IMG/VR virus record: IMGVR_UViG_3300001533_001542
Location: 1-30,806 of that record
Direction: 5' to 3' (one strand)
Length of the DNA stretch: 30,806 nucleotides
Source: a virus
Below are positions 8,653 through 30,806 of the stretch, piece by piece. The stretch's first letter is position 1. Each line of letters starts with the position of its first letter. The notes beneath the pieces are model-generated. The model had not been told where the DNA came from and searched no databases. It saw only the letters and a list, made by a program, of their open reading frames with translations. The position numbers and the translations under genes are program-made.

Positions 8653-10227
8653 ATGTCGACGAGTTATCGAATTACCGTAAACGAAATTGATCGTTCCGCT
8701 TCGCTACTTCCCGATGTTGGAAATACTGGTGGAATGGTGGTACGTTCCTCGCGGGGTCCACGTGAGCCCATTCGAATTTCACCCGGACAGAATCAACGGT
8801 TGTTTGATCTTTTTGGAGAGATTTCAACAAGTTACCCGGATGTATGGGAAGCGTATCAGTATATTCAGAATGCACCGCTTTGGGCGGTTACTCCCTCTGA
8901 TACAACATCGGATACACAGAGTGCAATTGTTGTGGAGTCTACGGGAGCTTTGGGGTACTACAGTGCCTCTCCAACATCTAGCTTACAGAGCTCTTCGGGT
9001 GGACTTACTCCAACATCGATTGATGCTTTCACTTTCTCGGCTTCTACTCAGTATTTTGTACTTTATTCAAAGATTCCTTCAACAAGTGATTTCTTGAGGA
9101 CTTCGGTATCGTACAATAGCTTAAAGGATGCTTTCAACATCATTCTTTACATTCTTCGTGATGGAGCGTATGAAGTTTATGATGAGTATACCGTATCAAT
9201 CACAGAGGGCGCTACCGGAGACTTTGGTTCAAACATCTATATTGAGGATGTGTTTGCAGAAAATGATCTTATCGGTGTGATTGTAAATGATACAGCTGGA
9301 GTAGCCGGAGATACGTCAAACGAGTTTGTAGATTCTACAGAAGTTGACTTTACCGGAAGTGCAAAGTCCATCAGTATGAGTACCCTTCTTACAACCGCTT
9401 GGGCATACTTCCAGAGTTCACGTAAGTATCCGGTAACGATTTTTATGGATACAACGGCGGATTCTTCAATCCCCGCGATCTTCAACACTATGAGGAACAC
9501 CTATCAAACCCGATCATTTTATATAATGCCGCTTCCTCTTACGGAAGGGTCATCAGCTGCTATTTCAACAAAGGCAGGATACTCTTCGAACAATAGGGGA
9601 ATCGCTTATTATTGGAATCAGGCAAAGGTGCAATATGGAACAAAGAAGTTTTGGACTTCACTTATTGGTCCTATCGGGGTACGACATGCGTTGATGGTTG
9701 ACGTGTTCAATGGGCTTGCCCCCTCATGGATCAATGAAGGAAACCATGGTGGGCAGCTTGGTAGTATTGGTGTACTGGAAATGAAGTTTGATCCTACACA
9801 AACAGAACTTGAAGCACTAGACGATGTAAACATCAACCCCCTCGTGTTTGATCCAAACTTTGGGGTGATGATTACCTCACAAAAGACGGCGAAAACTCCT
9901 GGATTCATATCGGATGATTCCTACATTGGGCATAGTCGCCTCTTTGATGTTATCATTGCAAATATTCAAACACAGATTCTTGTTCCTCAGATCACAAAGC
10001 TAAACGATGAGCTTCATCGAAGACAAGCGGCGCTTCTTGGTGGATCGTTCCTTCAAAGCATTGTAGATAAGGGGCTTTTATCGTCATACAAGGTAGTATG
10101 TGACACCTCAAATAATACCGGGGCGGTTCTTTCACGAAGAGAATTTGTATATACAGTTGAAGTTCGAGTGACTCCGTTCAGCGAGTCCGTTCAGTTCAAC
10201 TTCGTCAAGCTAAGTCAACTTAGCTAA
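8653..10227 (+). CDS. Contractile tail sheath protein
   Basis: A 524-aa protein with the layout of contractile tail sheaths. It opens with an N-terminal arm strand (MSTSYRITVNEIDRSASLLP) with GGMVVRSSRGP, then a large variable Ser/Thr-rich insertion domain (about residues 90-250) and a conserved alpha/beta core (KYPVTIFMDTTAD, WTSLIGPIGVRHALM). The C-terminal domain contains HSRLFDVIIANIQTQILVP and ends in a strand exchanged with the neighbouring subunit (YTVEVRVTPFSESVQFNFV). In the virion it polymerises around the tube and contracts to drive injection. It is directly followed by the tube gene, which supports the call. The 3' end carries a hairpin. Confidence 0.9.
   Translation: MSTSYRITVNEIDRSASLLPDVGNTGGMVVRSSRGPREPIRISPGQNQRLFDLFGEISTSYPDVWEAYQYIQNAPLWAVTPSDTTSDTQSAIVVESTGALGYYSASPTSSLQSSSGGLTPTSIDAFTFSASTQYFVLYSKIPSTSDFLRTSVSYNSLKDAFNIILYILRDGAYEVYDEYTVSITEGATGDFGSNIYIEDVFAENDLIGVIVNDTAGVAGDTSNEFVDSTEVDFTGSAKSISMSTLLTTAWAYFQSSRKYPVTIFMDTTADSSIPAIFNTMRNTYQTRSFYIMPLPLTEGSSAAISTKAGYSSNNRGIAYYWNQAKVQYGTKKFWTSLIGPIGVRHALMVDVFNGLAPSWINEGNHGGQLGSIGVLEMKFDPTQTELEALDDVNINPLVFDPNFGVMITSQKTAKTPGFISDDSYIGHSRLFDVIIANIQTQILVPQITKLNDELHRRQAALLGGSFLQSIVDKGLLSSYKVVCDTSNNTGAVLSRREFVYTVEVRVTPFSESVQFNFVKLSQLS
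10208..10225 (+). promoter_or_regulatory. Small hairpin at the sheath/tube junction
   Basis: AGCTAAG (10208-10214) and CTTAGCT (10219-10225) pair perfectly around a TCAA tetraloop, covering the last codons of the sheath gene. There is no T-run, so it is not a terminator. A role in processing or in shielding the downstream ribosome binding site is possible but unproven. Confidence 0.3.
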
Positions 10228-10247: not shown

Positions 10248-10862
10248 ATGCCTACAGTATCCGATCTATATGGCACTATTGGGGAAGATGCTCCAAACAA
10301 CTTGTATGAGGTAGACTTTACTTGGGCATCTGCACCAAGTGCGTTGTTTACTAGTACTACGACAATAAATAGTCTTGACGCCCTAAACTCACATCTCAGT
10401 TATCGTGTAACGGACCTATCGATTCCATCGGCGGAAACAAGTACGTACTCGGTAGATTGGGGGGCTTGGACTATTGATCGGCCTTCTCCAAAAATAACAA
10501 CTTCTCGGGAAATGAGTTTGTCAATTCGCTCTGACAAGAACTATGATCTATACAAGATTTTTGTGAACTGGAAGAACGCGATTCAGAATGAAACTACCGG
10601 TGCGATTGGAGCCGTGACTTCTTGGACCGCAAATATCCTGACAGTCACTATTAAAACGATTGATAGTTCCAATGGTCTTATAGTTCTGTTCAACAACATT
10701 TGGTGTACCTCCGTAAGCGACCTCTCATTCTCACAGGGTGGTGGAGACCCCGTGACGTTTACCGTAGGGCTTAACTTCATGTCTATCGACAGAAACTTCT
10801 CTGAGACCCCGGATACTGATGGTTCGGAGGATACCGGCGGTACTTCTGGGGCGGCGTCGTAG
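10248..10862 (+). CDS. Tail tube protein
   Basis: Two hundred four residues from ATG 10248 with a perfect AGGAGG six bases upstream, the strongest ribosome binding site in the region, as expected for an abundant structural protein. The beta-rich T4 gp19-like tube pattern is visible: SHLSYRVTDLSIPSAETSTY, then SREMSLSIRSDKNYDLYKIF, a long middle strand, and CTSVSDLSFSQGGGDPVTFT. It ends in a flexible Asp/Gly/Ser tail. Tube subunits stack as hexamers inside the sheath. Adjacency to the sheath strongly supports this. Confidence 0.85.
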   Translation: MPTVSDLYGTIGEDAPNNLYEVDFTWASAPSALFTSTTTINSLDALNSHLSYRVTDLSIPSAETSTYSVDWGAWTIDRPSPKITTSREMSLSIRSDKNYDLYKIFVNWKNAIQNETTGAIGAVTSWTANILTVTIKTIDSSNGLIVLFNNIWCTSVSDLSFSQGGGDPVTFTVGLNFMSIDRNFSETPDTDGSEDTGGTSGAAS

Positions 10863-11709: not shown

Positions 11710-12735
11710 ATGATTGATTTTTCAGGCATGGCACAAACGGACAACACGGTGATGAATTCAGAACCCGCACCCCTCACGTACTTTCCCCCTGAGTCTCTCG
11801 AAATTACGCTTTCTACCGGAGGGCGGCTTTCTTCTCCGAGAACACTTCACGTTACCGACTACACAATGGAGGACGTACTAAAGCTATCCACATCAAACCC
11901 GGAAACACTCCTAAATGAGTTAATGCAAGTGATTCAGAACTGTATCAAAGACCCTGAAGTATCGGTTGAAGACCTTCATGAGAATGAATTTGAAGAAGTA
12001 GCCTTCACCCTCTACTACACGAATTGGTCTCACGTAATCAATGATTATCCCTACCCCTGGACACGAGAAGAAGTAGATCAGCTCGAAGCGGATGGGGTGA
12101 TTGATGCAAAACGGAAGTATAATCTTCTAAACGGAAAGGAAGTTCCACGAATCAATCTGTCCCTTGACAGCGTTCAGCTTGTCCCTCTTCAAGAAGACTT
12201 TAGTGAGCCTATTGTCATTCGTATTCCAGATGGATCACGTATCGGATTTCGTCTTCCTCGCATTGGGGATTTCCGAATTCTCACCGAGGCGCTAAAGGCC
12301 AAGTATCATCATGAAGATATGGAATTTCTTGATACAAAGCGACGGGTACAAAGGGATCAAACGAAAGCGGAACTTGAAATCTCCCCTCATCGAATGGAAG
12401 AGTACCGTGATTATGAAAGGCGGCGGGCAATCGATATGATTCAACTTCGTCAAGGGCTTCTTGTTCAATGGATAGAGAATAAGGATGGAGAGCGACAAAG
12501 TGAGTTTACAAATAATGAGCGCATTCAGTTTTACCACGCTTTTGATCGTAAGGTTTGGATTACCCTAAACAAAGCCCTTGAAGACTTGAAGTTTGGAATT
12601 GATCATGAGGTGATGGTGCGATCTCCATTCACTGGAGAAAACGTAACAAGGAGGTGCTCTTTTCAAATTATGGACTTTATACCAACCAATGACGTACCGG
12701 ACGATTCAGGATACACTGTTTCATTTGGTACTTAG
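11710..12735 (+). CDS. Tail assembly chaperone (upstream member)
   Basis: Three hundred forty-one residues from ATG 11710 with AAGGAG upstream. It sits immediately before the tape measure, the standard place of gpG-like chaperones that coat the tape measure during tail assembly. The N-terminal part has SSPRTLHVTDYTMEDVLKLS, and the rest is acidic and helical with LFRLPRIGDF-like segments. In frame 2 a second ORF starts before its end and runs 157 bases beyond it. AAGGAGG at 12648-12654 followed by TCT TTT CAA could promote a +1 shift, making a gpGT-type fusion. The chaperone function is inferred from position and the overlapping arrangement. Confidence 0.6.
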   Translation: MIDFSGMAQTDNTVMNSEPAPLTYFPPESLEITLSTGGRLSSPRTLHVTDYTMEDVLKLSTSNPETLLNELMQVIQNCIKDPEVSVEDLHENEFEEVAFTLYYTNWSHVINDYPYPWTREEVDQLEADGVIDAKRKYNLLNGKEVPRINLSLDSVQLVPLQEDFSEPIVIRIPDGSRIGFRLPRIGDFRILTEALKAKYHHEDMEFLDTKRRVQRDQTKAELEISPHRMEEYRDYERRRAIDMIQLRQGLLVQWIENKDGERQSEFTNNERIQFYHAFDRKVWITLNKALEDLKFGIDHEVMVRSPFTGENVTRRCSFQIMDFIPTNDVPDDSGYTVSFGT

Positions 12736-12892
12736 GCTCGGTATACCAGAAAGTGAGATTCTAAAGTTGTACTTTCATACCGTACGTATGAGATTAGATC
12801 AATTGAAGGATTACGATAAGAAGAAGCAAGAACAGGAAAGAGCACAGATGGAACAACAAAGGGCGAATCAGAAAAAGGCTCGCTACAAGTAG
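12689..12892 (+). CDS. Tail assembly chaperone downstream ORF, probably a frameshift extension
   Basis: The frame is open from 12647 to TAG 12890-12892. ATG 12689 is the only usual start but has no ribosome binding site, and a 46-base overlap with the upstream gene in the +1 frame suggests translation by frameshift. The 67 residues from ATG contain FHLVLRLGIPESEILKLYF, then a highly charged Lys/Gln/Glu tail (KKQEQERAQMEQQRANQKKA), typical of the second chaperone domain that binds the tape measure. The position just before the tape measure supports this. Confidence 0.55.
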   Translation: MTYRTIQDTLFHLVLRLGIPESEILKLYFHTVRMRLDQLKDYDKKKQEQERAQMEQQRANQKKARYK

Positions 12893-12908
12893 CAAGAGGG
12901 GATTGGAG

Positions 12909-15900
12909 ATGTCGGATATACCGATGATGCATGAAACAGAAGGATCATCATATCGCGGGTTGATACCGGCTCTTCAATCCTCATTTGTCAAGTTCGGTGA
13001 AAAGCTCGATAACACCGCCGATAAGATGGTTGATGGTCTTAACTCCGTTACAAAAACTACAATCGAAAAAACCGTAAACAGTGCCCTCGGCCCGATATCA
13101 ATGTTCATGCAGCCTTTTCAGGATGTGTTTGGTATCGATTTTGGAAGAGGACTTGCCAACCTTGTCAATTTTAAGCGGGGTACCGGCCTATTCGGTACTG
13201 GTAAAGCCTTCCGTGGCCCGCTTGATGAACGAACCATAAAACAGATTGATCCCGGATCTACCTTCCTCTCAAAGACACTAGAGCGCCTTCTCGGTGAGGA
13301 TGGAAAGAACAAGTTCACTTCTATCTTTGAGACACTTGGGGATTTTTTTAGTGGGGGAAAACTGTTCGGCATGTTCAAAGATGCCCTTGGTATTGGAAGT
13401 CTCATCATTGGAATTGCGGATATGGTGAAGGGAGCGATTGAGGGATGGAGGTTAGCGGAGGATTGGGGTGTTGAAAGTTGGATTGGGGCTATCGGTGGAG
13501 CCCTTGGTGGTACGGGAGAAGGTAAGGAAAACGCATTTCGGAATGCACTTACAAAGGGGGCATTGGGTGCGGGAATTGGAATGGCCGTGTTCGGCCCTGT
13601 TGGATTCATTATCGGCGGTATCATTGGGGCGGTAGGTGGAGCGATTCTTGGATATTTTGGGGGAGAGAAGATTGCACAATGGATTCAAAATGCAAAGGAT
13701 AGCATAACCGATTACATTGAAGATGAGGGGTGGGGAAGGATTCTTGGTGACTTTGCAGATGGCGCACTTCCCGGCGGCTTAGTAGGGCTTGCGCTTTTCG
13801 GCCCGGTTGGATTTATCATTGGAGCCGTTTTGGGTGGGGTGAGTAAAGTCCTATGGGAGTTTTTTGATCAGGACAATGCCCTCACAGAAGGCTTAGGTAA
13901 CCTCAAGACAAGTATTACCAGTTACATCACTGATACCGGATGGAACACTGTCCTCACCGAAGCGATTAGTGGTCCTGGGCCTCGTGTTGGTGCCCTCATC
14001 GGATCATTTGGTGGCCCGCTTGGATTGGTGGCGGGGTTCATACTTGGTTTAGGCGCACAAGCGATTATCAATTTTGTTTCTGCAAGTGAGTGGGGAGAAA
14101 GAATTAAAGAAGTAAAGAATAACATTCTAACCGCTGCGACAATATCGCTTATTAGATACCTTCCTCATGTTCCCGATTGGATTCGAGAGCCGCTTAGACA
14201 AGTGGCTTTTCTTGGTCCGGTAGGCCTTATTGCCGCTTCGTTTGTTGCGTATGGGCTTAAATCAATATCAGACTTCATGAATTCTGAAGATACAAAAACA
14301 ACAATCAGTGATACGAAGGAATCGGTCATTAACTTCATGAAGACTACAGATTGGGGAAGTATCCTCATGGATAACCTTGATCTTGGTCTTGGTATTAGCC
14401 TTGGACTTATTGGAGGCCCATTTGGTTTGATTGCGGGCTATCTTCTTGGGTGGGGAATAAAGTCTCTTGTTGAGTTTATACAAACTCCCCCCGTACAAGA
14501 TTGGATAAAAAGTACAACGACAAGCATTAGAAAGATTTTTAGTAGCGAGAAGTTTTACTCAACTATATCCTCAATTGAACTTCCAAGTGTAGTACAAGAG
14601 ATTCTTCATACTCCCTTCGGAATGATTGCCGGTTTCCTTGTATGGCACGGTATTGATGCGGTACGGGGATTTATTGACACTGCCGGAGATTGGGTAGCAA
14701 CACAACGTGATGTGGTTGTAGATCGAATTCAAACATTCCTTTCCGATCATGATGAGATAGTCAACATTGCACGTGGACTTGTCTCTACTGGTATTGAGAC
14801 ACTCCGTGGAATCGATTGGGCGGGGATTGGTAGTCGTATTGATCAACGTGTAGATGATATGAGGGACTATCTTTCAGATCATGGCGGGTTCTTCAATGTT
14901 ACACGGGGGGTCATAGACTCCTCAATCGGTTACTTGAGAGAGCTAAATTGGGGAAGTATTGGAGATAGGTTTCGTGATATACGATTCAATATCGGCCTAT
15001 ACTTATACAAGAACGGCGGATTCTGGAATGTAACGCGGGGTGTAGTAAACTCTGCAATTGCTTCTCTACAAGAATCACGCTTAGGACAAGCGGTTGAGGG
15101 AATGGGAGATAAAATACGGACGTATATAACCTCCGGTGAATGGAGAGAGGCGGTTGGGGAGCGCACAGAGGGGCTACGGGCTACTCCTGTTGGGATGATT
15201 GTTGCGGAGTTCATTCAGGGATCAATAGACTCAATTCGAGACTTTATTTCACGAGCACGTGATACTACAATCGGACAGTGGATAGAGAATGCGGTTGGAG
15301 GAATTCCTGAGTATTTTGCGGAAGTTGGGTGGCAAAGTATTCTTGGAAACTTCCTTAAGGGGGCGAAATCGGGAGCGATACGAGGACTCATAACGGGTGG
15401 CCCTGTAGGTGCGGTTGTTGGTGCTTTGATGGGTGGTGTTACAAACGTTCTGATGAATTACCTATCCGCAACCGGACTCCTTCCCGCTTGGTTAAAGGAA
15501 GGAAGGGATGCAATTGGATCATTCTTTCGGAATGTGAATTTTGAAGAGTTATTCTCAAATATAGCAACTGGTCTCGGTATCGGAATGGCAATAGGCGCCT
15601 TTGTTCTTCCCGGCCCTGTTGGATTTATTGTTGGCAGCCTTGTTGGTGCGGGTATCGGCGCTATATGGACATTCTTTAAGGGAGAGGGGTCAAAAGAGTG
15701 GCTTGGGGGCATCTCTCTTGGTAGAATCGTTAGTGGGATATTTGGGAATGCGAAAATAATGAGCATATTTTCGGGCTTACTTGGGACAATCGGATTTCCA
15801 ATGATTGGTGGTGCAATTGGCTCACTTGTCGGTAGTGTTCCCGGTGCGATTCTTGGTACCATTATCGGTGCGGTAATCGGATGGGCCTATCGTGGTATCA

Positions 15901-16202
15901 TGCGTGTACTCAATAAAACTGATGGCGATGCCATTGTAGAGGGTGTGACGAGTGACACCTCATTTCTCGGAATGTCGACAAGGCAAGAGGTAACAGGAGC
16001 ATTAGCGGGGTTTGGTATAGGGGCTGGTGGAACAATTATAGCAGCCTTAGCGGTTGGGGCTACTGGGTTTGTCCCCCTTGCTATTGCACTATTAGCGGGG
16101 GCAATTTTTGGGGTTGTAGGAAAGGCAATAGGAAGAGAGGTTTTTAACGCTAAGAGCTACACTGAAAGACTGGAAGCCATGTCCCCCATTATGGATTTTT
16201 AA
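12909..16202 (+). CDS. Tape measure protein, N-terminal and central part
   Basis: ATG 12909 (GAGGGG seven bases upstream) is preferred over TTG 12903. The 1097-aa product is the ruler that sets tail length and is ejected ahead of DNA. It has a helical N-terminus, then about ten glycine-rich hydrophobic modules of the form FGPVGFIIGxxxG, spaced about 65-72 residues apart from about 13590 to 15620. Each is linked by amphipathic helices with repeated W-G-x-I and a YI or FI segment. In the middle (about 14760-15060) are three shorter modules around NVTRGVV-S-I. The ORF ends at 16202 only because a 55-bp duplication shifts the frame; without it, it continues into the next ORF and would be 1320 aa. 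Confidence 0.85.
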   Translation: MSDIPMMHETEGSSYRGLIPALQSSFVKFGEKLDNTADKMVDGLNSVTKTTIEKTVNSALGPISMFMQPFQDVFGIDFGRGLANLVNFKRGTGLFGTGKAFRGPLDERTIKQIDPGSTFLSKTLERLLGEDGKNKFTSIFETLGDFFSGGKLFGMFKDALGIGSLIIGIADMVKGAIEGWRLAEDWGVESWIGAIGGALGGTGEGKENAFRNALTKGALGAGIGMAVFGPVGFIIGGIIGAVGGAILGYFGGEKIAQWIQNAKDSITDYIEDEGWGRILGDFADGALPGGLVGLALFGPVGFIIGAVLGGVSKVLWEFFDQDNALTEGLGNLKTSITSYITDTGWNTVLTEAISGPGPRVGALIGSFGGPLGLVAGFILGLGAQAIINFVSASEWGERIKEVKNNILTAATISLIRYLPHVPDWIREPLRQVAFLGPVGLIAASFVAYGLKSISDFMNSEDTKTTISDTKESVINFMKTTDWGSILMDNLDLGLGISLGLIGGPFGLIAGYLLGWGIKSLVEFIQTPPVQDWIKSTTTSIRKIFSSEKFYSTISSIELPSVVQEILHTPFGMIAGFLVWHGIDAVRGFIDTAGDWVATQRDVVVDRIQTFLSDHDEIVNIARGLVSTGIETLRGIDWAGIGSRIDQRVDDMRDYLSDHGGFFNVTRGVIDSSIGYLRELNWGSIGDRFRDIRFNIGLYLYKNGGFWNVTRGVVNSAIASLQESRLGQAVEGMGDKIRTYITSGEWREAVGERTEGLRATPVGMIVAEFIQGSIDSIRDFISRARDTTIGQWIENAVGGIPEYFAEVGWQSILGNFLKGAKSGAIRGLITGGPVGAVVGALMGGVTNVLMNYLSATGLLPAWLKEGRDAIGSFFRNVNFEELFSNIATGLGIGMAIGAFVLPGPVGFIVGSLVGAGIGAIWTFFKGEGSKEWLGGISLGRIVSGIFGNAKIMSIFSGLLGTIGFPMIGGAIGSLVGSVPGAILGTIIGAVIGWAYRGIMRVLNKTDGDAIVEGVTSDTSFLGMSTRQEVTGALAGFGIGAGGTIIAALAVGATGFVPLAIALLAGAIFGVVGKAIGREVFNAKSYTERLEAMSPIMDF

Positions 16203-16250
16203 CGCTAAGAGCTACACTGAAAGACTGGAAGCCATGTCCCCCATTATGGA
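16141..16250 (+). repeat. Perfect 55-bp tandem duplication
   Basis: Positions 16141-16195 and 16196-16250 are identical over exactly 55 bases, starting TTTTTAACGCTAAGAGC and ending CCATTATGGA. The flanking bases differ (G and A on the left, T and G on the right), so the unit is exactly 55. Because 55 is not a multiple of 3, the tape measure frame breaks here; deleting one copy joins both ORFs in frame. Confidence 0.95.
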
Positions 16251-16926
16251 GCCTTTAGCATCGAAAATAGAATCGGGGGACTTATTAGACATCACAGAAC
16301 AAGAAGCACTCGCAATCGAGTCATTCCTTCAGCACTTTACAGAAAGTGGGCACTCCGATAGAATACGAGAAGGAGCAGACACTGCAAGATTGGAGGCACT
16401 CTCAGCGATTATTGATTTTAAGCGAGGTAGAAGCAACGGAATTAGTGAAGACCCGGAGCTAATTGAAGCTCTTGCGGCAGAAGCCTTCGATATATCACTT
16501 GTTAGGCAATACTGGGGGGGTTTAACTAGATCGAGGAACATCCTTAATCCTGTTATCCCAGCCCTCCAACGTTTTGCTGAAGGGTTTCAAACTGTATTCG
16601 GTGAATCAACTGGATACAACTTTAGAAATGAGAATGACTTCATCCTTCGTCCGAATGGGGAAGTGATAAGTACTCACCCCAATGACACTATTATAGGATT
16701 GAAGGATATTGATACCTCAATGCAAGAAGCTGAGAGAACAACCGTTGCTGCTCTTGCGACTATCATGGGGACAACCGGCAGTGGGGGGTCTACGGTAGTA
16801 GATGAGATACGGGGGCTTCGGGAAGACATGAAGAAAACAAAATCGGGAACAATGGTGCAGAACAACTATACAAGCCGATTCAATCCGATGAATGTTGCTC
16901 GCTCTCTCACCATGGAGGTTTTGTAA
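16234..16926 (+). CDS. Tape measure protein, C-terminal part, separated by the duplication
   Basis: ATG 16234 lies in the second repeat copy and has no proper ribosome binding site. The residues MSPIM at the start also occur at the end of the preceding ORF. The 230 aa are mainly helical (DLLDITEQEALAIESFLQHF; DEIRGLREDMKKTKSGTMVQ) and end in NPMNVARSLTMEVL, like a tape measure C-terminus that docks at the baseplate hub. It is probably not a separate gene. Removing one 55-bp copy places it in frame after 16178 of the upstream ORF. Confidence 0.75.
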   Translation: MSPIMEPLASKIESGDLLDITEQEALAIESFLQHFTESGHSDRIREGADTARLEALSAIIDFKRGRSNGISEDPELIEALAAEAFDISLVRQYWGGLTRSRNILNPVIPALQRFAEGFQTVFGESTGYNFRNENDFILRPNGEVISTHPNDTIIGLKDIDTSMQEAERTTVAALATIMGTTGSGGSTVVDEIRGLREDMKKTKSGTMVQNNYTSRFNPMNVARSLTMEVL

Positions 16927-17694
16927 ATGAGCAATCAGACCATTATCATCCAAAAGGGGGGGGTAGACGTTCTTAGTGGAACGGGAATACAGATGTACAT
17001 GGAGGACGCCCTTAGCGTTCGGGCATCGTCGCAATGGGATGCACCATTTCAATCGATACAAGAAGGGGCTTCCGATTTAGCAAATGCTATAAATACTTTC
17101 GGATCACTAATAGGGGCTTTTCGGGGTGAGGAGTCTGAAGATGCTTCCCTTATCAATCCCTCAAAATGGAACTTGTCATTTCAAACGAAGTATGCAACGT
17201 TTCAAGTTTGGAAATACAGTGAACCAATTGCATTTAACATTTCGGTAACGTTCTTTCTCGGAATGGCGGACATCTATGATGTAAAGAAAGAAGTGATTAT
17301 CCCCGTATCAAGACTGATGAAGCTTGTTCTTCCAACTGAATCCACAAAAGATAAAACTATTTTTGAGAGGCTTACGAAACTAATTGCACCCGGCCCTTCA
17401 ATGGATGATTTAGTAAGCGCAGTGTTTGAGGGAGATGCAATACAAAAAGTAGACTTTGGGAGTAAGGAATCATTCATTACCGTTAGAATGGGAAAATTTC
17501 TACGCCTTGAGGATTGCTTCATTTCATCGGTAGAACCAACGTTTAGCGAGACTCTTACCGATGATGGATATCCAGTATCGGCGTCTGTACAGATTGGGAT
17601 ATCTACACTAACGGTAGCAACAACAAACATGATAGACTCCATGCTTGGTATACAACAAAAGGGGGGAACCGAGACTGTTAGGGGGCATACATAA
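16927..17694 (+). CDS. Baseplate tube-initiator-like protein
   Basis: ATG 16927 directly follows the previous TAA, with GGAGG upstream. Two hundred fifty-five residues; beta-rich, with NPSKWNLSFQTKYATFQVWK, AFNISVTFFLGMADIYDV and a C-terminal GKFLRLEDCFISSVEPTFSE then YPVSASVQIGISTLTVATT. The last block (LEDCF-SSV-P-FS...G-P-SA-V-I-T) resembles baseplate tail-tube initiator and gp48/gp54-like proteins that nucleate the tube on the hub. It lies right after the tape measure and before the gp53-like gene, which is the expected place. It ends in a TAATG overlap. Confidence 0.65.
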   Translation: MSNQTIIIQKGGVDVLSGTGIQMYMEDALSVRASSQWDAPFQSIQEGASDLANAINTFGSLIGAFRGEESEDASLINPSKWNLSFQTKYATFQVWKYSEPIAFNISVTFFLGMADIYDVKKEVIIPVSRLMKLVLPTESTKDKTIFERLTKLIAPGPSMDDLVSAVFEGDAIQKVDFGSKESFITVRMGKFLRLEDCFISSVEPTFSETLTDDGYPVSASVQIGISTLTVATTNMIDSMLGIQQKGGTETVRGHT

Positions 17695-28300: not shown

Positions 28301-30806
28301 TACAGACAATACACTGTTTACCGATGAGTTTGTTACTTGGGCTTCTCCTGTGGGACGGACCACCACTGTTGTTCGAGAAAATAGTTTCATATGGGAAAAC
28401 ATAATTGGATATTCCGATGGATCAGCTTCTGTTCCGATTGAAGGGCGAACGTTTATCATTCGTGTTCGGGTAGTAACGAAACTTGGAAGTACAGGACCTT
28501 GGGGGACAACTACAGCAACCTCATCTATTGCACGCATTGATCGGGTGGGGTTTGTTACACAGCGATCCCTTGCAATGAATGGAGAATATCGAGCGATAAG
28601 TGTTGGGGAGATTGAGGGGCTACCAACATGGGCGCGCACCACTGGAATTTGGGCAGACTCTTTTGAGAATCAAGCGAAGACGGAAGATGGTACCGATCTT
28701 GTACAATACAACACAGAAGACGTTACCGATAGCTATGGGAACACGATCTACAAACGGTACGTAGCCGATTATACAAGTGCCGGCCTTGTGTTAGGCAGGT
28801 GGCAACAAGTGAGTGGTACGTATGGAAGTACCATGTTTGCTTCCGAACAAACAGGGACAGCAATTGCTGGAGGGTGGCAACTCACGATCGGCGACAACTC
28901 CGGGAATGATGAAGCAACCATTGCCTGGAAAAACTCCATTCCTTATGATCCGAACAAACTATATCGATTAAGAGCCCGCATCAAAAGAGTTAGCGGGACG
29001 GGAAGAGCAAGTATTGGCATTATCGGAAGAAATAGCTCTGATTCGGATTGGGTAAGTTCATCAGGAAGTACGTCCATCTCACCCTTTTATAGCATTTCAG
29101 CGGAAGATGTAAATCCGACAACAGGTGAATGGACAGAGTATATCGGATATATTGGGGCTACCTATGATGACAATGGCAATCTTGTTCAAGGAGTCGGTAC
29201 GCCCGATGGAACGGTACACTCTGATCCTACAGACCCCGAAGTAGCACACGATGATCTTCGCTATATTCGCCCCATTCTTCGTTTTAATACGACATCTTCT
29301 TCCGGACAATACGCTATTGATTATCTACAAGTTGAAGAAATTGATGCAGAGGCACTTTCTAAAGTACGAAAGGGCTTAAACTATCGTGGACAGATGATTC
29401 GGCGTGTTGAAGCCTCAAAGATGGATGAAACGGCGATTGATCTTGATACTGAATACAGTGGTACATTTTCCAGTAATGAAGTTCTTATCGATAAGGACAA
29501 GATTGCATTTTATCTTTCAGGACAATCATCCGCTCGTGATGCGTGGCCGGTGTGGTTCAAAAACGATGGTTCTTTCAAGTTAGAAAAGAAGATCGGCATA
29601 GACAATTACCACTACTTCAAAACGGATACCGAGGGGTTTGTATTTCGGGGTTCAGTATTGTTTACTTCTGGTAGTAGTGGGTATAACAACATAACGGATA
29701 TACCAGATTATCCGAATAATGACAATCTTGTATTTTATGCTCCTCTAGATGAGGGGGTTGATACCTATACAACAGATATTGTTGGTAAAAATACAATTAG
29801 CCTAACTGGCGCTACATCATGTACGGGTGTTGCGGGTAAGGCATTGACGTTCAGTGGTACCAACGATGCGCAGATCGCAAGCGGGCTACCTGCTGGTGAT
29901 GCGTCGTTTATCTTGTGGTTCAAGGCGACGAAGGGTGTGGCGCAGGACCGAACGCTCGTGTCCCAAGACGGGGAGGCGGGGCGTGGTTGCTACATCGCCG
30001 CTGATGACGATAGGATAATCTTTTACTCCCAGGCAGCCGATGGCCTGACTTCCAGAACTTCAACCACACAAGGAGCTGAATGGACCGCGTCTACGTGGAC
30101 GCACGTTGTCGGGGTGCAGGATGGCACGACCACGCGCATCTACTGTAACGGCGAGCCGGCAGACGAAGACACCCACGCCGACATCTACACGTCATTTGAC
30201 GCTACCGGCGACATTGGGAATCGCGCAGGGTCACTTGATTTCGACGGCTCGCTGGATGACATTCGCGTGTACGATCGTGCGCTTACTGCAAATGAAGTGA
30301 AAGCCCTCTATCAAAATCCTGGTATCAATTGGACAAACTGGCAGTTAGATGAGCGCCCCTTTGAGATTGATGGGGGAGCCGTTGCCGGTGTTATACGATC
30401 TAAAACAAATCCCACCTTCAACTTTTGGGACTTTGAACGTGGAAACTTTTCTGTAGGTATTGGTTCAGAATCGCAGCTAAAGATCATCAATACAACAACT
30501 GAGGATGAAACCGCTACCGGATTCTTTCTTATCGGTCTTAATCTTGAACTTACCGAATCAGATTTGAGTACATTCTTTACAGATTATTCTTCAAGCTCAA
30601 AAAAACTCACTCACGCAAGTGGTGGTTTCTATTGGGCGAGTGCAACAGAAGAAAACCCGATTGCAAATTATGATAAGATGATTGAGTGGAGCGCGGTAGA
30701 CGGTAATCCTCTTGTAATTGATAGCGATACTACGACGAATCTCAAAATAGATGGGGATGATATTTTAGTTGTAGAAAGTACTGGGATAGATATTACAGGT
30801 AACCTT
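25398..30806 (+). CDS. Giant multidomain tail fibre / host-recognition protein, 3' truncated by the window end
   Basis: ATG 25398 with AAGAGGA seven bases upstream; 1803 codons stay open to the last base. Landmarks: a CBM5/12-like module at about residues 120-166 (YSEGDYVSYDGTNYVS...SEWWN), fibronectin-III-like regions at about 231-341 and 917-1044 (SISLEWTAQ...FIIRVRVVTK), helical or coiled segments at about 435-520, and a LamG/concanavalin-like domain at about 1443-1638 (LVFYAPLDEG, SFILWFKATKG, THVVGVQDGTTTRIYCNGEP, GSLDDIRVYDRAL). The last residues (NLKIDGDDILVVESTGIDIT) look like the repeat preceding a self-cleaving fibre chaperone domain, which is outside the window. Role: host surface binding. 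Confidence 0.8.
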   Translation, partial: MGQIGSDIKRNMTFVTYSKFGEYITAQNAGKSPGDPGYIDISPGDLGYPDPVDNDNIDIDYTNAIGDAIEAYIRAESYYPLDTPTWDSPAIEETIVEAEPGVFRPTVSLHWIAQSTLTPSAWAIETTYSEGDYVSYDGTNYVSLSDSNVGNTPNVENSEWWNPLVVTNDTIQVFRKKGSGVYQQIAILENTEADYTDEQTLFNETYDYRLIRLNGVGGFTEFSTTQTISTSSFPTPITPTDNPVLYVSSGSVGIQYDGVDDTETITQYYEIEYRTAKAKSSDDGEWSIPIYPEWGAWTNLINTASLRVVHNEVQSTSCYQYRYRVTSNYSISSGYSPLSEVVIPFEKIDVSTLNLGYIASQAHTVLVGTGSDPTTIFFSPSSLDPAIDADTDTLVTDGSLWWKIDTNSIMQYEGTSNSWNADTTLSLNSATTYDSLITSTVSTATKTTLLNSYYKILVLRKTLLERFGTKIESLQDNPAFTALRERFITLTDSFYNPIYGLLTDMSEASTNHDPDWCVDQYRKYLREERTLGQYLIGKYNSGLSRSVQFDSDTYKPAFNSGLGKLVQYIESVGSDSVDLYYGDSANRSSVLSSADVGDIYVESTTVYTKVGSAWIEYTGRLLSYASLRFIVSPSTNNVKTIFVYSDTGSLPTAYAVDDLMIFEEGVELAAPTYGDYTKTFYTGVYKAIGNSVSEWDNAEWASLEFTYSDSSTKRTQRLTQTIQNNFEKGDVFIPSSDIAYTGTYSDFTFLEDSIYVAVEDYLSPFNPGSWSNLIRSTSVVEPETAFRRVEVIYSGDTLTIGEKQALVQEYANFKAAYDDLVDQASGYTTNFPYVQTAVTSYTKTINSFYAFLYGEDGLLVSLTTPTIRVGLWDTIQSYSSSLSLDQKNVEENLERAKTQYEQLTGFDGTVDGQEITTTINTISNFYATPGVDSISLEWTAQMNLTSFNYYELQASDDGGDSYHALEIDTDNTLFTDEFVTWASPVGRTTTVVRENSFIWENIIGYSDGSASVPIEGRTFIIRVRVVTKLGSTGPWGTTTATSSIARIDRVGFVTQRSLAMNGEYRAISVGEIEGLPTWARTTGIWADSFENQAKTEDGTDLVQYNTEDVTDSYGNTIYKRYVADYTSAGLVLGRWQQVSGTYGSTMFASEQTGTAIAGGWQLTIGDNSGNDEATIAWKNSIPYDPNKLYRLRARIKRVSGTGRASIGIIGRNSSDSDWVSSSGSTSISPFYSISAEDVNPTTGEWTEYIGYIGATYDDNGNLVQGVGTPDGTVHSDPTDPEVAHDDLRYIRPILRFNTTSSSGQYAIDYLQVEEIDAEALSKVRKGLNYRGQMIRRVEASKMDETAIDLDTEYSGTFSSNEVLIDKDKIAFYLSGQSSARDAWPVWFKNDGSFKLEKKIGIDNYHYFKTDTEGFVFRGSVLFTSGSSGYNNITDIPDYPNNDNLVFYAPLDEGVDTYTTDIVGKNTISLTGATSCTGVAGKALTFSGTNDAQIASGLPAGDASFILWFKATKGVAQDRTLVSQDGEAGRGCYIAADDDRIIFYSQAADGLTSRTSTTQGAEWTASTWTHVVGVQDGTTTRIYCNGEPADEDTHADIYTSFDATGDIGNRAGSLDFDGSLDDIRVYDRALTANEVKALYQNPGINWTNWQLDERPFEIDGGAVAGVIRSKTNPTFNFWDFERGNFSVGIGSESQLKIINTTTEDETATGFFLIGLNLELTESDLSTFFTDYSSSSKKLTHASGGFYWASATEENPIANYDKMIEWSAVDGNPLVIDSDTTTNLKIDGDDILVVESTGIDITGNL
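29830..30300 (+). other. GC-rich LamG-like insert within the fibre gene
   Basis: Several 60-base stretches here are 65-70% G+C (for example 29941-30000 and 30121-30180), against about 40% just before and after. The codons GAC, GCG, CGC, ACG and GGC replace the AT-ending codons used elsewhere. The segment matches most of the LamG-like domain, so the domain was probably acquired from a higher-GC source. Confidence 0.7.

Follow-up and report, generated by a model that had tools for sequence, protein, structure and literature searches.

In the IMG/VR record analysed here, a perfect 55-bp tandem duplication causes the phage tape measure gene to read as two open reading frames (ORFs). In the phage itself the tape measure gene is very probably ordinary and unbroken, the second 55-bp copy being an artefact of assembly; this degree of probability is a judgement. 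The window, meaning the whole stretch of DNA that was analysed, is the entire linear record of 30,806 bp and is free of Ns.

The window contains a contractile-tail module composed of genes for the sheath and tube, a gene in the position of the tail assembly chaperone, the tape measure gene, a PmgG-like gene, a gene in the hub position, a gpV-like gene, a baseplate wedge gene, and tail fibre genes. The PmgG-like protein matches those of PaBG, HRDY3, and the Erwinia SNUABM jumbo phages at 22–31% identity. The annotated regions of those phages have a common gene order of sheath, tube, two genes, one or more ORFs in the tape measure position, and PmgG. These sequence comparisons indicate that the phage is contractile-tailed and distantly related to the jumbo phages PaBG, SNUABM_7, and HRDY3. 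Because of the PmgG matches and the common gene order, the genome is likely to be large and the record to be a fragment of it. The features of the window that are discussed below are:

8653–10227, plus strand: tail sheath gene, used as a query for homologous relatives
11710–12735, plus strand: gene in the position of the tail assembly chaperone, synteny anchor upstream of the tape measure gene
12909–16202, plus strand: ORF1, the N-terminal part of the tape measure gene, with its TAA stop (16200–16202) inside copy 2
16141–16195, plus strand: copy 1 of the duplication, which ORF1 reads in frame 0
16196–16250, plus strand: copy 2, identical to copy 1, read in frame +1 by the frame of ORF2, probably an assembly leftover
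16197–16203, plus strand: UUU UAA C closing ORF1, within five consecutive T, where +1 slippage would enter the frame of ORF2 (rival reading only)
16234–16926, plus strand: ORF2, the putative C-terminal part of the tape measure gene, assigned from its +1 frame and position and ending directly before the PmgG-like gene
16927–17694, plus strand: PmgG-like gene, synteny anchor immediately downstream of the tape measure gene

The duplication and the split reading frame

The initial annotation described two perfect 55-bp copies lying head to tail at 16141–16250, and the sequences of 16141–16195 and 16196–16250 are indeed identical. The run of matches at an offset of 55 is exactly 55 bases long and is bounded by a mismatch on either side: copy 1 is preceded by G and followed by T, and copy 2 is preceded by A and followed by G. 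There are exactly two copies, and they are as long as one of the commonly used k-mers. Similarity beyond the 55 bases does not exceed chance, and the flanks show no decayed repeat array, because the adjoining 55-base units are only 20% (left) and 35% (right) identical to the repeat unit. No further exact tandem duplications of 20–400 bp were found in the window. A 55-bp tandem copy cannot have originated by chance.

The coding signal, calculated as codon log-odds trained on the other genes of the window, lies in frame 0 until the repeat and in frame +1 beyond it, and therefore one tape measure gene reads as two ORFs of approximately 1099 (ORF1) and 230 (ORF2) residues. The ends of the two ORFs are positioned as previously claimed, with ORF1 terminating in MSPIMDF before the stop that ends at 16202 and ORF2 starting with MSPIMEP at 16234. 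The length of 1320 residues given for the single-copy reading from the ATG at 12909 is also arithmetically correct; a TTG at 12903 is an alternative start of ORF1. The stop of ORF2 adjoins the PmgG-like gene (16926/16927), and that of ORF1 falls about 720 bases short of it.

The identification of the split gene as the tape measure gene is borne out by matches of ORF1 to tape measure PHROGs (phrog_1272, E = 1.1e-8; phrog_167, E = 2e-5) and to the ORFs in the tape measure position of related phages. The gene lies after the chaperone-position gene and before the tail gene that follows, in the same place as in loci L246–L249 and in phages PaBG, SNUABM_7, and HRDY3. Comparison of ORF2 with the C-termini of the tape measure proteins of the relatives gave no alignment above the shuffled background, so it is only the frame and position of ORF2 that suggest that it belongs to the tape measure gene.

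Tape measure genes of related phages

Relatives of the window phage were found solely by way of PmgG and the sheath. The sheath searches gave six related loci, four of which span the tape measure gene. The gene forms a single uninterrupted ORF without the duplication in all four: L246 (595 residues), L247 and L248 (670 residues), which look like one phage recorded twice, and L249 (708 residues). This agrees with the expectation of the initial annotation that related phages would have one uninterrupted ORF. The four ORFs are positioned between homologues of the neighbour genes of the window and resemble ORF1 in their N-terminal parts, with E-values of 1e-5 for L246, 1e-22 for L247 and L248, and 6e-9 for L249. 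Their stop codons lie 2–10 bases upstream of the PmgG-like gene. These relatives are distant, with sheath identities of 44–50% at best, and they suggest only that the tape measure gene of the lineage is normally undivided. Searches of IMG/VR, from which near-identical records were excluded, with an exact 32-mer, ORF2, or the baseplate wedge protein found no close relatives, and neither the wedge protein compared with bacterial and archaeal genome contigs nor the tape measure parts compared with GenBank phages retrieved any relatives.

The tail regions of these loci have additional features. Two differing sheath-like genes, encoding 513 and 620 residues, are adjacent in L247 (9980–13396) and L248 (3902–7318), and both are related to the lone sheath gene of the window. 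ORFs resembling GIY-YIG/NUMOD3 homing endonucleases lie between the tail genes of L245 (7894–8868) and L246 (1877–2881 and 11540–12388); the window has no such ORFs at the corresponding places.

The ORF in the tape measure position is also single in all 16 of the more distant IMG/VR loci examined (879–1178 residues; several of these loci are near-duplicates), and in both SNUABM_7 and PaBG. The cultivated Pseudomonas phage HRDY3 (PQ015379) has two adjacent ORFs in this position, of 843 and 342 residues, ahead of a PmgG-like gene as in the window. The two ORFs meet at GTGATG (L004, 5148–8707). In contrast, the closest relatives of HRDY3 carry one ORF of 1172–1178 residues (L005, 3586–7113; L006, 2111–5647; L007, 6191–9709), which is 69–70% and 60–62% identical to the two HRDY3 parts. 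The split in HRDY3 may be genuine, with the protein made in two parts, or it may stem from a frameshift error in the deposited sequence. The existence of relatives with two ORFs at this point had been named as evidence that would speak against an artefact. HRDY3 provides two ORFs in the right position, but its break is located at another point of a tape measure protein without detectable similarity to that of the window, no duplication was reported or found there, and the homologous relatives of the window phage have a single ORF.

Origin of the 55-bp duplication

The duplication is most likely not real biology. The unmerged k-mer overlap put forward earlier as the leading explanation is the best supported reading, although not a proven one, and the length, the clean edges, and the published 55-bp k-mer leftovers fit it. 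A short-read assembler would have broken the contigs at an ambiguous point, leaving the flanking contigs with one k-mer in common. Placing these contigs end to end with the k-mer (k = 55) untrimmed would produce the tandem repeat. Since 55 = 3 × 18 + 1, the remainder of the gene would be shifted to the +1 frame, and the false stop TAA would appear at 16200–16202. Under this scheme, the record would have passed an assembly stage with k = 55, and the junction between copies 1 and 2 would be missing from the reads; that the overlap came to lie within a contig, and without Ns, is an assumption. The exact k length, the clean edges, and the otherwise intact operon are the pattern expected from an overlap left in twice. 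A real duplication can be of any length and often has some homology at its junction.

Comparable leftovers have been described in assembled contigs. The direct repeats of contigs in the Extended Data of CheckV peak at 55, 77, and 99 bp and were ascribed to assembler k-mers (PMC8116208), and artificial 127-bp overlaps of SPAdes contigs were described and removed in another study (PMC5923482). The overlap between contig ends was reported for COBRA as maxK, or maxK-1 for IDBA-UD (PMC10914622). The CheckV and SPAdes repeats resemble the duplication in the window in being exact, clean direct repeats of k-mer length, but they are found at the two ends of a contig, whereas the copies in the window are adjacent inside the contig, which presupposes an additional joining step. 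The scaffold joins analysed by Chen et al. 2020 are similar in that the overlap of neighbouring contigs was kept as duplicate sequence at an internal join; however, Ns separate the copies there (PMC7111523).

Among 50 IMG/VR records, exact end overlaps measured 127 bp (n = 6), 141 bp (n = 1), 123 bp (n = 2), 124 bp (n = 1, in a simple repeat), and 50 bp (n = 1). The overlaps of 127, 141, or 123 bp are found at L144/L145, L150/L151, L194–L199, L218/L219, L148/L149, L212/L213, and L236/L237. Such untrimmed overlaps make an IMG/VR record longer than its genome. The loci, approximately 3.31 Mb, were scanned for duplications in one pass at a 95% threshold and another at 90%. Microsatellite-type sequence aside, the scans found no clean two-copy duplication of 34–300 bp besides that of the window. 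The sole other one longer than 30 bp, in L185, has 33 bp and is in frame by length. It is located at 10350–10416 and encodes a CxxC-type sequence. The number 33 is also a SPAdes k-mer size, and the duplications in L185 and the window are the only interior ones of k-mer length in the 3.3 Mb, too few to calibrate the coincidence in length. No interior duplication other than that of the window reaches 55 bp.

The exact length, the copy number of two, the lack of edge homology, the switch of frame, and the intact gene in the homologous relatives thus all speak for an artefact. Against it, the leftovers measured in the 50 records are all at contig ends rather than in the interior and do not include a length of 55 bp, the published duplicates at scaffold joins came with Ns, and clean real duplications such as that in L185 do occur. 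The last point, together with the identity of the copies, which fits a very recent event, would also suit a real 55-bp duplication that arose in the phage genome, or in part of the population, and inactivated the tape measure gene. We consider such an event unlikely, and similarly unlikely that the assembled genome represents a dead-end or low-fitness variant, because both would require a chance equality of length with a common k-mer size, zero homology at the junction, and the loss of a tail assembly gene, yet without other obvious damage to the downstream operon. A real duplication would normally disable the tail ruler.

A genuine duplication in a still viable phage is very unlikely, whether viability came from +1 slippage or from two separately translated ruler proteins, as HRDY3 might have; both routes leave the coincidence with 55 unexplained. 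Slippage at UUU_UAA_C would yield the full tape measure protein with approximately 18 extra residues, and the run of five U would allow the peptidyl-tRNA to re-pair perfectly one base on. As in the +1 site of prfB, a codon ending in UU that can re-pair at +1 is followed by a stop and C; UUU_Y is prone to +1 shifts in bacteria, and UUU_U is the shift site of release factor 2 in a few species (PMC5009743). Nevertheless, the sequence of the window is UUU_UAA rather than CUU_UGA, the upstream sequence CCCCCATTATGGAT, read by eye, contains no strong Shine–Dalgarno stimulator, and the relatives do not have such a site because their ORF is without the break. Furthermore, UUU precedes the first stop in 15.5% of simulated 55-bp duplications in ORF1, which makes the site unremarkable. 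This kind of rescue is scarcely credible. A genuine two-part tape measure, with ORF1 and ORF2 translated separately and then assembling together, has a possible precedent in the two ORFs of the HRDY3 isolate record, as opposed to one in L005–L007, but that break lies elsewhere in a protein without detectable similarity and may itself be a sequence error. The split in the window coincides with a perfect duplication of k-mer length, the homologous relatives have a single ORF, and the ATG of ORF2 is preceded, at a distance of two bases, only by GGAAG, which in copy 1 is internal coding sequence. A two-part ruler is therefore highly improbable.

Three other readings were considered. Target-site duplication by a mobile element was rejected, since nothing is inserted between the copies. 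The neighbours and the gene order on both sides of the duplication match the same relatives, which argues against a chimera of two different phages and makes the join as such look correct. A circular contig, left untrimmed and rotated afterwards, was the third reading. The genes recognised in the window are tail genes only, and when the last ORF is continued from base 30806 into base 1, it stops after 17 codons in a stop-rich stretch; this gives no support to a closed circular record but falls short of a strict exclusion.

Consequences for annotation and other possible frame breaks

If the duplication is an artefact, its importance is confined to annotation. The tape measure gene would be entered in truncated form alongside a hypothetical gene that does not exist, and estimates of tail length based on ORF1 would come out approximately 17% too short. 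This suggests a simple screen of viral contigs for exact, clean tandem repeats of k-mer length that flip the reading frame. If the duplication were real, the tail ruler would tolerate a frame break.

Two other places in the window have overlapping reading frames. At the 5′ end of the record, the frames at 3–188 and 136–630 resemble two pieces of one protein and may mark another break in frame close to the end of the contig; a search for relatives of these frames found none. The frame at 12647–12892 overlaps the end of the chaperone-position gene, and a like arrangement occurs in L244, L245, L246, L247, and L249. The chaperone-position genes of all six phages close with almost the same sequence (YTVSFG or similar, around TCATTTGG), and beyond the stop of the gene the +1 (or -2) frame is open for about 40–55 more codons. 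The arrangement has the appearance of a conserved programmed frameshift in a tail assembly chaperone (G/GT-like), by +1 or -2 rather than -1.
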